Assembly: GCA_002336405.1 (NCBI GenBank)
Contig: DDEJ01000137.1
Coordinates: 1-12,355, forward strand
DNA length: 12,355 bases
Direction of reading: 5' to 3'
DNA from: Rhodobacteraceae bacterium UBA1957
GTDB taxonomy: Bacteria > Pseudomonadota > Alphaproteobacteria > Rhodobacterales > Rhodobacteraceae
How positions within the stretch are numbered: position 1 is the first letter of the stretch; each line of letters opens with the position of its first letter. Under the pieces are notes generated by a model that saw only the letters and a list, made by a program, of their open reading frames with translations, did no database searches and was not told the origin of the DNA. This document shows, in pieces, positions 3,431 to 7,769 of the stretch. Made by a program: the position numbers and the translations under genes.

Positions 3431-3552
3431 GCGAAATCAAAGACATTTGGGGGTCGGGAAGTCAAGTCTTGAGACTGCTTGCTTAGGTGCCGGCGAATTG
3501 TAATGAGCGATAGTATTTTGGTGGTTCAGTGCGATGGGCTGTATTTTTTACT

Positions 3553-3617
3553 TTGGACTGATCTGAATTTTAAAATATACCACTTTTAATATGAGCATCA
3601 AAAAAATCTGGTATAAA
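3553..3617 (+). promoter_or_regulatory. Candidate promoters for the MORN gene
   Basis: In the 277-bp AT-rich region between the divergent dehydrogenase and MORN genes, TTGGAC (3553-3558), a 17-nt spacer and TATACC (3576-3581) give one sigma-70-like promoter with a leader of about 120 nt. A second candidate is the extended -10 TG-G-TATAAA (3609-3617), without a good -35. On the minus strand TACAAT (3497-3502) is a possible -10 for the dehydrogenase gene. No small ORF or clear operator was found in 3431-3707. All are consensus matches only. Confidence 0.3.
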
Positions 3618-3707
3618 CTAGCTTTAAGTCGTTACCTTACTCCGCTCGGACTACACAACTGGGGAAATGACTGATACGGATAGTCAAATGCCTATTACGG
3701 GGTTTGT

Positions 3708-6584
3708 ATGAAATATGTGATCTTTATTTTGCAACTTGGGTTTGTTGCTTTTGTTTTAAGCGCTGGGCAGAGTTCTGCTCGTACTGTTTGTATGGGGCCT
3801 GCCTCAACATGGGATGAATGCTATCGCACAGTAACAGACGCGGATGGCAATAAATACGTTGGAACATTTAAAAACGGCAAGTTCGAGGGTGAGGGGAAAT
3901 ATAGTGAAGCCAATGGCAATGTGTATATTGGCACCTGGAAGAACGGCATCTTTCATGGTGAAGGTGTACGCAGTACTGCGGATGGCGCAAAATATACCGG
4001 CGCTTATCGCGATGGCCTGAAGCATGGGGCTGGGACCTATATCTCGCCTACGGGCGCCACGTATCTAGGCGACTTTAAAAACGGAAAATACGATGGGCGT
4101 GGGGTTTTAACAAAAGCAAATGGCGCGGTATATACCGGTGTTTGGGCGTTTGGAAAAATGCAGGGACAAGGCACATATGCCTCGCCTAAAGGGCACCGGT
4201 ACAAAGGGCAGTTCAAGCGCAGTGAATTTGATGGGCAAGGCACTTTTTATGCGAGCAGTGGAGCAATTTATAGCGGCTTGTTTAAAGGCGGTCAGTTTCA
4301 CGGCCGTGGTGCTTTTACGGCTGCTGATGGCAGTAAATATTATGGGCTGTGGCGCGCGGGAAAACGTCATGGAACCGGCACTCAGGCTTATGTTGATGGT
4401 GGTAAATATGTCGGTCAGTGGGGCGATGACAAACGTGAAGGTATAGGAACCTACAGTGATGCTGATAGTGGCATCTATGATGGTACGTGGCAGGCAGACA
4501 CGCGCTATGGCCGGGGCACTCAGACCTATGCGGATGGCGGTGTGTATGAAGGTGATTTCAACGATGACCTCGTGGATGGTCTGGGCGTATATATCTATCC
4601 TGATGGCAGTCGCTATGCGGGTGAGTGGCAAATGGATTCTCCCGAAGGTCAGGGCCTGTATGTTTCTGTCGCGGGCGATACCTATATTGGCGAATTCAAA
4701 CGAGGTTCGTTTGATGGGCAGGGTGACTACATCGCGGCCGATGGGCAGACCTATGCTGGTATGTGGCGCAGTGGTAAACGCCATGGTCGCGGCACTCAAA
4801 CAGATCCCTCAGGCGCGGTTTATACCGGCGATTTCGACGCGGACTTTCGCCAGGGGCAAGGGGTTTCCACCTATCCTGACGGCAGCACGTACGCCGGTGC
4901 ATGGCAGGCTGATCAATATAAGGGTCAAGGCAGCTTTGTTACCGCCAAAGGAGACACATATGTCGGACATTTCACTGATAGCCTTTTTGATGGGAACGGC
5001 ACGTATACAACGGCAGATGGTGCAAAGTACTCTGGTGCATGGCTGAGCGGGAAACGTCAGGGGCGGGGCACTCAAACCTACGTAGATCAGGGCGTATACA
5101 AGGGTAATTTTAATGACGATATGGCTGAGGGCCTTGGCCAATATCGCAGTTCGGATGGCAGCGCATATGCCGGTGAATGGTTTGCGGGAATGCGCCGGGG
5201 GCACGGTTTGTATGACTCGGCTGCCGGTGACCGCTATATTGGCAGTTTTATCGCCGACCTGTTTGATGGAGACGGCACTTATGCGGCGGTAAACGGCGAC
5301 CATTATACTGGCCAGTGGCGTGGCGGGAAACGGGCCGGGCGGGGTGTTCAGACCTATGCCGACGGTGGTGTTTACGACGGCGATTTTACCGATGATATCC
5401 GCGCTGGGCTGGGCCTGTATCGCGATCCTGATGGTGGGATTTACACAGGCGAATGGGTCGGCGATGCCGGCAGTGGCCAGGGTCTGTTTGTCGCCCCGAA
5501 CGGTGACCGATATATTGGTGCCTTTGCCGGCAACCTGTTTGAGGGGCAAGGGGTCTATGAAGCCGTGGTGGGTAATCTGTACCAAGGCGCATGGTTGGCT
5601 GGAAAACGCAATGGGCGTGGCACCGAAGATTATGCGGATGGTGGCACCTATGACGGTGATTTTGTCGATGATATTCGCAAAGGAATCGGTCATCACGTCG
5701 CGGCGGATGGGGGCAGTTATGCTGGCGAATGGAACTTGGACATGCGCAACGGACAGGGCCTTTATATCGCGCCTGACGGGGACAGCTATTGGGGTGAGTT
5801 CGCCGATAACCTGTTTGAGGGCGAAGGGCGCTATGCGGCAGTGGATGGCGATGTCTATCAAGGTGCATGGCTGACCGGCATGCGCAACGGCTATGGCACT
5901 CTGCGCTATTTGGATGGTGGCATCTATGAGGGTGACTTTCGCGATGATGACCTAATGGGGCAAGGCCACTATCGATTTGCGGATGGCAGTGTCTATGTCG
6001 GTGAGTTTTCCGCGAATCTATTTGAGGGAACCGGCACCCACACTGCACCGAACGGCGATCAATATGAAGGGTCCTGGCGGGCTGGCAAACGCCATGGTCG
6101 TGGCGCCCAAAGTTACAAGAGCGGTGACAGCTATAGTGGTGACTGGAACGCGGACGTGCAATCGGGGCAGGGCGTCTATCGTGCCGCCTATGGCGATGTT
6201 TATACCGGACGTTTTGAAAAAAACCAATTCAATGGCCATGGTGAATATCTTTGGGCGAGCGGCGCGCGTTATGACGGAAAATGGGTAGATGGTCAACGGA
6301 CGGGCGAAGGTACCTATTTCTATGTTAATGGCCGTAAATATGTTGGTCTTTGGAAGCAAGACAAACGTCATGGGACGGGCAGCTATAGCTTTGCCAATGG
6401 CAATGTATATCTTGGTAAATGGAAAGACGACCAAAGGAACGGTACGTTCACAGTGACCTATGGCAACGGAAATACCTATGTTGGGGAACTCAAGAACAGC
6501 TGTTTCCATGGCAGAGGAAAATTCACTTTTGCCGATGGTACGGTCAAACAGGGCCTTTGGAAGAATTGCAAATTGATCGATTGA
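3708..6584 (+). CDS. Giant exported MORN-repeat protein
   Basis: This 958-residue protein consists of a signal peptide (about 1-24, hydrophobic 3-19, cleavage after S-S-A), an N-terminal cap with C28 and C38, and 39 complete MORN repeats of exactly 23 residues from Y50 to residue 946. A truncated fortieth unit ends the protein. The unit is roughly YxGxW/FxxGxxxGxGxYxxxDGx. No enzymatic domain, transmembrane anchor or sorting motif is visible after the signal peptide. Only four cysteines are seen in the mature chain: C28 and C38 at the start, C932 and C954 at the end. MORN arrays fold as elongated beta-hairpin solenoids and usually act as scaffolds or membrane/partner binders, so a periplasmic or surface role is inferred but unknown. 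The ATG at 3708 follows GGGG (3699-3702) at 5 nt. The gene stands alone: it diverges from the dehydrogenase gene and is followed by gene-poor DNA. A weak GAAAC/GTTTC hairpin (6591-6609) follows the stop. Confidence 0.93.
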   Translation: MKYVIFILQLGFVAFVLSAGQSSARTVCMGPASTWDECYRTVTDADGNKYVGTFKNGKFEGEGKYSEANGNVYIGTWKNGIFHGEGVRSTADGAKYTGAYRDGLKHGAGTYISPTGATYLGDFKNGKYDGRGVLTKANGAVYTGVWAFGKMQGQGTYASPKGHRYKGQFKRSEFDGQGTFYASSGAIYSGLFKGGQFHGRGAFTAADGSKYYGLWRAGKRHGTGTQAYVDGGKYVGQWGDDKREGIGTYSDADSGIYDGTWQADTRYGRGTQTYADGGVYEGDFNDDLVDGLGVYIYPDGSRYAGEWQMDSPEGQGLYVSVAGDTYIGEFKRGSFDGQGDYIAADGQTYAGMWRSGKRHGRGTQTDPSGAVYTGDFDADFRQGQGVSTYPDGSTYAGAWQADQYKGQGSFVTAKGDTYVGHFTDSLFDGNGTYTTADGAKYSGAWLSGKRQGRGTQTYVDQGVYKGNFNDDMAEGLGQYRSSDGSAYAGEWFAGMRRGHGLYDSAAGDRYIGSFIADLFDGDGTYAAVNGDHYTGQWRGGKRAGRGVQTYADGGVYDGDFTDDIRAGLGLYRDPDGGIYTGEWVGDAGSGQGLFVAPNGDRYIGAFAGNLFEGQGVYEAVVGNLYQGAWLAGKRNGRGTEDYADGGTYDGDFVDDIRKGIGHHVAADGGSYAGEWNLDMRNGQGLYIAPDGDSYWGEFADNLFEGEGRYAAVDGDVYQGAWLTGMRNGYGTLRYLDGGIYEGDFRDDDLMGQGHYRFADGSVYVGEFSANLFEGTGTHTAPNGDQYEGSWRAGKRHGRGAQSYKSGDSYSGDWNADVQSGQGVYRAAYGDVYTGRFEKNQFNGHGEYLWASGARYDGKWVDGQRTGEGTYFYVNGRKYVGLWKQDKRHGTGSYSFANGNVYLGKWKDDQRNGTFTVTYGNGNTYVGELKNSCFHGRGKFTFADGTVKQGLWKNCKLID
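3855..6545 (+). repeat. 39 tandem 69-bp MORN units
   Basis: The MORN units run at an exact 69-nt period, with no insertion or deletion in 39 copies (39 x 69 = 2691 nt). The copies have diverged at nucleotide level, so this is an old coding array rather than a recent satellite. The open reading frames opposite and beside this gene (for example minus 4809-5861) arise because Gly, Asp and Tyr codons rarely give stops on the other strand. Confidence 0.93.
4476..5993 (+). repeat. 276-bp (four-MORN) higher-order repeat block
   Basis: Repeats 10-31 cycle through four types. Type B has W at position 5 and GKRxGRGTQ. Type C has DF, DD and often GLG. Type D has EW and GQGLY. Type A has F at position 5 and LFDG or LFEG. 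The order B-C-D-A recurs five times (repeats 10-29), followed by B-C. For example, the 92 residues starting at repeat 22 and at repeat 26 agree at about 54 of 92 positions by hand alignment. The pattern implies growth by duplication of four-unit blocks. Confidence 0.8.
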
Positions 6585-7259: not shown

Positions 7260-7463
7260 ATGGAGACAATGATCTCGGTAAACGGTGTGAAAATGACTGT
7301 GAGACAGTTTTATTCACAGACCCATTATGATCAGGATGGTGATGAGTTAATCTTAATCGGTGCCGGTACGATGAAACTCAAAGATTTTAAGGTGTTGACC
7401 CCAGAGCAGCAGGACATGCTTGATCCGCGCCCCGATCTTTCAGCCCAAAACAACGATAAATAA
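7260..7463 (+). CDS. Small acidic hypothetical protein (66 aa)
   Basis: I do not recognise this protein. The ATG at 7260 is preferred over the upstream ATG at 7221 because GGAG (7246-7249) lies 10 nt before it. The product begins METMISVNGVKMTVRQFYSQ, has a central DQDGDELILIGAG segment that looks like beta-strands, and ends in a polar tail with PRPDLSAQNNDK. There is no signal peptide, membrane helix or cysteine. Amino-acid composition and codons look genuinely coding. It lies downstream of the gene-poor region and converges on the 78-residue ORF (7533-7769). A cytosolic small protein of unknown role is the most that can be said. Confidence 0.5.
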   Translation: METMISVNGVKMTVRQFYSQTHYDQDGDELILIGAGTMKLKDFKVLTPEQQDMLDPRPDLSAQNNDK

Positions 7464-7532: not shown

Positions 7533-7769
7533 TTAAGCCCGCAGAGCTGAATAGGTCAGCGGCTTTTGAATCGCGTTATCACCCGCCATCCGTGCCCGGG
7601 CGGCAGCGCTTATTTCGACGATCACACTTGGTGTGCCGCGAAAGGTCTTTTCTGCCCCACCCGGTTTGTTTGTCGCATCCCCGGTTTTTATTCTGGAATA
7701 GAGATTTTGGTATTTCATATAGGTCGCGATGACATGGGAAACGCCGGTTCTTAAACTATCCCAAGCCAT
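7533..7769 (-). CDS. Small hypothetical protein (78 aa)
   Basis: Starts MAWDSLRTGVSHVIATYMKYQ and carries a Pro/Gly-rich linker (NKPGGAEKTFRGTPS), then VEISAAARARMAGDNA and a C-terminal LTYSALRA. The second half reads like an amphipathic helix of the kind seen in many short alphaproteobacterial proteins, but I cannot name a family. AGGG lies about 9 nt upstream of the ATG on the minus strand, and codon choice looks coding. No signal peptide or membrane segment is visible. It is divergent from the MFS transporter gene, separated by a 271-bp region holding two dyads, so its promoter region may share those sites. Confidence 0.55.
   Translation of the reverse strand: MAWDSLRTGVSHVIATYMKYQNLYSRIKTGDATNKPGGAEKTFRGTPSVIVEISAAARARMAGDNAIQKPLTYSALRA

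Follow-up and report, generated by a model that had tools for sequence, protein, structure and literature searches.

As described in the available part of one report, MORN repeats range from 2 to over 20 per protein, the MORN groove binds protein in other organisms, and rods of MORN1 form tail-to-tail dimers (PMC7725318). The available part of a second report places TIC100, a MORN protein, in the chloroplast intermembrane space and assigns it to a 1-MDa complex (PMC9338805).

The locus described here is bacterial and encodes a MORN protein of 958 amino acids with a signal-like N-terminus (3708..6584, plus strand; open reading frame and Pfam). It lies in a stretch of 12,355 nucleotides from Rhodobacteraceae bacterium UBA1957, which is called the window and to which the coordinates refer. 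An ortholog is present in a second genome of the same genus (G001; L034:6090-8966).

A MORN array in unbroken register

The array consists of 39 complete MORN units, each exactly 23 residues long (residues 50–946; 3855..6545, plus strand), as judged from the register and the predicted models. The units follow one another with zero insertions or deletions and are succeeded by 12 residues of a 40th unit. The framework residues Y1, G3 and G12 are present in 39/39 units, G14 in 38/39 and G21 in 37/39. Unit position 5 is aromatic (W, F or Y) in 38/39, and the 23-residue unit contains both YxGxW and GxG. Counted with a strict motif, the protein has 39 units; 300 composition-shuffled versions average 2.6 and do not exceed 7.

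MORN (PF02493) is the sole Pfam family on the protein and scores 507.4 bits, with a curated cut-off of 22.5. In a six-frame search of the genome, 24 of the 39 units are recognised singly at an E-value of 1e-3, so that approximately 15 units owe their recognition to the register and the adjacent units and do not reach this threshold by themselves. In the Pfam scan of the protein, 11 stretches individually reach an E-value of 1e-3. The initial annotation had described 39 indel-free units of 23 residues in a pure array without any enzymatic or anchoring domain. The register, the MORN-only Pfam result and the strict count against shuffles bear this out. Two features are absent from that description, namely a four-unit super-period and the confinement of all four cysteines to the end modules.

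Predicted structure

AlphaFold predicts a canonical MORN β-hairpin solenoid (pLDDT 84.3 for the whole protein). A model of units 18–31, which span the weak stretch of the whole-protein model, has a mean pLDDT of 96.7. This supports the single continuous rod of the initial annotation, and the protein is predicted to form one continuous rod or ribbon of β-hairpins. The pTM of the whole-protein model is 0.39 and thus curvature and length of the rod are not fixed by the model. If straight, the rod would be about 35 nm long.

The best PDB matches of the predicted models are MORN1 structures. Rhs chains retrieved by Foldseek align over the whole length, but with query TM-scores of 0.12–0.16 and r.m.s. 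deviations of at least 50, and no RHS repeat is reported by Pfam in the protein. As modelled, the protein would provide a long, regular β-solenoid for structural work.

The end modules

Residues 1–25 (3708..3782, plus strand) form a probable Sec signal peptide according to hydropathy, the ortholog and the model; placed by eye, cleavage would occur between SSA and R. The maximum hydropathy over 15 residues of this N-terminus (MKYVIFILQLGFVAFVLSAGQSSA) is 2.57, compared to at most 0.71 elsewhere in the protein, which agrees with the signal peptide proposed beforehand. The hydropathy scan yields no second hydrophobic stretch. Residues 3–18 are modelled as a helix by AlphaFold, and the N-terminus of the ortholog is similar. 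A hydrophobic start is also found in five further MORN proteins of G001 and of G000, the genome that holds the window protein; these are all the N-termini scored besides the ortholog pair.

The N-cap (residues 26–49; 3783..3854, plus strand), delineated from the sequence and the ortholog, contains Cys28 and Cys38 in the arrangement C..W-x-x-C. Inspection by eye showed a comparable cap, with two cysteines and often a Trp at the third position ahead of the second one, in other MORN proteins of G000 and G001 and among the database hits. By a loose pattern, a Cys pair precedes the first unit in 31/155 proteins. The C-terminal module (residues 832–958; 6201..6581, plus strand; 90% in the ortholog) includes the partial 40th unit as well as Cys932 and Cys954. 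It is matched at 75% over 129 amino acids in the metagenome protein P0010 and at no more than 47% in the other 27 of 28 hits. Positions 28, 38, 932 and 954 are the only cysteines in both species and all of them lie in the end modules. The Cys pairs at both ends may form disulfides.

Gene neighbourhood

The MORN gene is divergent from a GSDH gene. A MAFFT alignment of the intergenic region and the 5' leader (3431..3707, plus strand) with the sister genome shows strong conservation over the last ~110 bases of the leader (3595–3707); no Rfam family matches the leader. Neither an operon nor a partner nor an informative neighbour was found, and none of the seven neighbours scanned with Pfam is a secretion gene. 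The Pfam scan of the neighbours is uninformative, as anticipated in the initial annotation, which saw no hint of function in them.

Two small ORFs were also observed in the window. One encodes 78 amino acids (7536–7769, minus strand), and 78/78 residues are identical in the sister genome despite a DNA identity of 92.7%, so that it is probably a real gene. It is present in 2/41 genomes and has no Pfam or NCBIfam family above cut-off. The other encodes 67 amino acids (7260–7463, plus strand), has 91% DNA identity to the sister genome over 199 bases and is without match in Pfam and NCBIfam.

Conservation in a sister species

The ortholog in G001 also comprises 958 amino acids. Both proteins align without gaps and 846 of 958 residues are identical (88%). 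In the ortholog 39/39 units are in register, each matching its own counterpart best. The surrounding 12 kb are collinear, with the same gene order and 84% nucleotide identity, and the DNA of the MORN gene has diverged by 13% between the two species with the unit number unchanged. The NG86 method gives dN 0.061, dS 0.52 and dN/dS 0.12; by YN00 the values are 0.076, 0.294 and 0.26, a less strict ratio.

The initial annotation had named a fusion or mis-assembly, to be recognised in close relatives, as the objection to a single array. G001 carries an array of identical length. Because this ortholog is 88% identical, lies in the same gene order and has all of its units in register, the 39-unit array is not an assembly artefact.

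A four-unit super-repeat

By lag-4 analysis, units 10–29 form five A-B-C-D super-repeats of four units, or 92 amino acids, each (4476..5855, plus strand). According to nearest-type scores, units 30–36 continue as A-B-D, A-C-D and A (5856..6338, plus strand); here whole units are skipped and the register is kept, and the type assignment of units 35 and 36 is weak. The lag-4 similarity of the units is 10.03 of 23, compared to 8.37 (sd 0.32) in shuffled order, and 0/5000 shuffles reach 10.03. Within units 10–31, lags 4, 8 and 12 score 12.5, 12.1 and 11.8, whereas other lags score 7.3–8.4. Across units 10–31 of both orthologs, position 5 alternates between W and F.

The unit types differ in charge and in turn residues. 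Their net charge averages +1.3 for type A, −3.5 for type B, −1.8 for type C and −3.0 for type D. Type A is basic, with KR in 4/6; type B is acidic with GDF..DD; type C has GEW..D and type D has LF in 4/5.

The lag analysis covered 154 sequences (148 proteins and six frames), 113 of which have at least 14 strict units. Among these 113 arrays the highest lag-4 z-scores belong to the window protein (4.5) and its ortholog (4.3), followed by P0049 (3.8) and P0016 (3.7). At some other lag, seven other arrays have z-scores above 4. Thus, super-periods or block duplication are not special to the window protein.

Codons at sites with the same residue agree in 111/225 cases at lag 4 and in 667/1424 cases at lags not divisible by four. 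This agreement is about equal, and the four-unit duplications are therefore old. Between the orthologs, type-specific residues are kept at 113/119 sites, compared to 214/277 of the other non-framework sites (Fisher p 5.5e-6); since the type-specific sites were picked from the array itself, general constraint may account for part of this difference. Apparently, the super-repeat pattern is kept by selection.

Array length and regularity among MORN proteins

The array was compared within a sample of 155 proteins, which is not random. It comprises the window protein, 147 distinct database proteins (120 of 488 hits listed plus 28/28 from a search with the C-terminal module, one being in both) and seven chosen frames from G000, G001 and G059. 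The longest unbroken run of exact 23-residue spacing is 39 units, in the window protein and its ortholog, followed by runs of 26 and 19. Within this sample the exceptional feature is the unbroken 23-residue register.

The length of the array, on the other hand, is not exceptional as the initial annotation had claimed. Giant MORN frames in G001 (L035, L036) have 94, 74 and 47 units; they are cut by contig ends and contain ambiguous bases, and their spacings of 23, 28 and 24 residues are mixed. P0002 and P0003 were considered as arrays of 41 units and rejected, as this count comes from the loose finder only, which counts as many as 18 units in shuffled sequences (300 shuffles); the strict finder gives 36 for P0002.

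Relatives in the protein database have 25–41% identity over part of the query among the 120 of 488 hits listed, and the 88% identical ortholog is not among these listed matches, being either absent from this database or outside the listing. In the bacterial MORN literature, among the matches listed and mostly open access, no paper on signal-bearing MORN proteins of Rhodobacteraceae was found. Within the same scope, the combination of a 39-unit indel-free array, Cys in both end modules and a four-unit pattern was not found either.

Distribution and related MORN proteins

The protein was used as the query against 60 related genomes (E-value 1e-3). A MORN match is present in 36/36 genomes of the same family, including G001, and in 5/24 genomes that belong to the class but not to this family. 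MORN proteins with a signal-like start appear to occur throughout the sampled Rhodobacteraceae (36/36 relatives with a MORN match). At 22 family loci the frames were read and each has a MORN frame of 14–18 units by a rough count. It is 467–599 amino acids long at 21 loci and a 5'-open frame of 869 amino acids at one.

The counterpart of this frame is found at a separate locus in G000 and G001, besides the gene of the 958-aa protein. This family protein of ~490 amino acids (G000:C165, G001:C41 and relatives) resembles the window protein in its signal-like N-terminus (scored for G000) and its exact 23-residue spacing, with 18 units in the two genus members compared to 39. It differs in that it is without Cys caps, has a tail rich in D, E, P and T (by eye) and lies in another gene neighbourhood. 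A few genes away, in both genomes, is a gene which we take to be 2-isopropylmalate synthase-like (L037, L038). Both genomes hold both MORN genes at separate loci, and the ~490-aa protein was rejected as an ortholog.

The C-terminal module has a match in 269 of 394 family genomes at an E-value of 1e-18. Likeness beyond the generic level is confined to G000 (100%) and G001 (90%); other genera reach at most 45% among the matches listed. The 958-aa protein is found in one genus only, in two genomes, with G001 being the sole other genome of the genus in the 60-genome and 394-genome searches.

The giant frames of G001 share with the window protein the MORN units and, in the two that were scanned, the absence of any other Pfam domain above cut-off. 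Two of them retain the N-terminus and have a signal-like start and a CP..W..C cap. In contrast to the window protein their spacing is mixed, and the lag-4 z-scores of the two frames listed are 2.7 and 1.1 compared to 4.5.

The proteins P0010, P0004, P0009, P0012 and P0026 are fusions with a trypsin-like domain, which is absent from the 958-aa protein according to Pfam. By eye, P0004, P0009, P0012 and P0026 share its N-terminal Cys-pair cap. PF13365 occurs together with MORN in 15 of 120 database hits listed. P0010 combines the trypsin-like domain with units that are 78% like a stretch of a G001 giant array and with a C-terminal module like that of the window protein. It is a mosaic of two array types, natural or from assembly. 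As it lies on a metagenome contig of 3,063 bases, it could be chimeric.

Two further MORN proteins of G000 were inspected for PG_binding_1, which is absent from the 958-aa protein in the Pfam scan. The frame L039 2-679 (G000:C157), cut by the contig start, ends in a match to this domain with 23.0 bits (cut-off 23); the small MORN protein of G000:C99 (L041) scores 18.5 bits, below the cut-off. A MORN frame of 955 amino acids with an eight-unit period was observed in G059, a genome of the class of ~1.2 Mb (L042, G059:C33). This genome contains 25 matches to the window protein.

Possible function

As a tentative best explanation, the protein may be an exported, end-stapled multivalent structural scaffold with repeated docking sites. 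As far as can be read from the sequence alone, it would be exported by Sec and the two Cys pairs would form disulfides that staple both ends of the rod. The groove of the rod would be lined with aromatic residues as in MORN1. Four unit types recur in the middle of the array, so that an identical patch would return about every 3.6 nm. In the periplasm or on the cell surface, the mature rod would then offer a multivalent platform for docking, to which several copies of one partner, or a second copy of the rod, may bind in register. Besides the array, its conservation and the four-unit period, this reading is favoured by the hydrophobic starts of the five further MORN proteins, by the borderline PG_binding_1 match of G000:C157, by the protein-binding MORN groove of another system and by TIC100 as a precedent in an envelope space. 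Against it stand the search for a partner, operon or informative neighbour, which found none, the super-periods of other arrays, the less strict YN00 ratio, the low pTM and the occurrence in only two genomes. An envelope molecular ruler is a further possibility, although an unlikely one. Here, a Cys-stapled rod of fixed length with docking sites every 3.6 nm would set the spacing or number of its partners. It would be one member of a class of exported MORN rods, so far unrecognised, which in the genus extend to more than 90 units.

A surface or extracellular fibre or adhesin, released or held outside and binding polysaccharide or cells via aromatic and acidic faces, is likewise unlikely. The signal-like N-terminus without a second hydrophobic stretch and the giant frames of the sister genome are consistent with it, but Pfam reveals no autotransporter barrel or anchoring domain and no secretion gene is found among the seven neighbours. 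MORN2 and MORN are different Pfam families, which weakens any precedent drawn from MORN2. Such a precedent is provided by Fusobacterium, where MORN2 proteins are found in outer-membrane vesicles; in the available part of that report the authors call a role in adhesion not proven (PMC10434195).

It is quite unlikely that the length of the array has no specific role and that the array is a block-duplicated spacer kept for folding and solubility only. The old four-unit block duplications point to such an expansion, as do the other long MORN arrays of mixed spacing in the sister genome and the differing super-periods of other arrays. However, 39/39 units remain in register despite the 13% DNA difference between the species, dN/dS is 0.12 to 0.26 by two methods and the type-specific residues are conserved.

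The protein might instead be an enzyme-free relative of secreted protease-MORN proteins, its array being the binding arm minus the trypsin-like domain. P0010, which couples such a domain to MORN units and to a C-terminal module 75% alike over 129 amino acids, argues for this relationship, as does PF13365 in 15 of the 120 listed hits. The explanation is nevertheless distinctly improbable: P0010 is possibly chimeric, and its matches in G000 and G001 begin at residue 593, past the protease part. An envelope rod that binds or bridges lipids with its aromatic groove is hardly to be expected.

Comparison with known MORN proteins

Neither the fold nor the repeat is new. MORN1 of Trypanosoma, Toxoplasma and Plasmodium is eukaryotic and its crystal structures (PDB entries 6t4r, 6t68, 6t6q, 6t69 and 6t4d) comprise repeats 7–15, as far as described in the available part of the source. 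The 958-aa protein, by comparison, is bacterial and has 39 units, a signal-like N-terminus and Cys in both end modules. TIC100, which belongs to the TIC complex of chloroplasts, is also eukaryotic and has three recognised MORN domains in the available part of its report (PMC9338805). As a natural 39-unit indel-free array that is constant in two species and has a four-unit pattern, the window protein is a clean model for questions of MORN binding and rod length. What is new here is the four-unit super-repeat; its combination with the 39-unit indel-free array and the end-module cysteines is absent from the literature matches listed.
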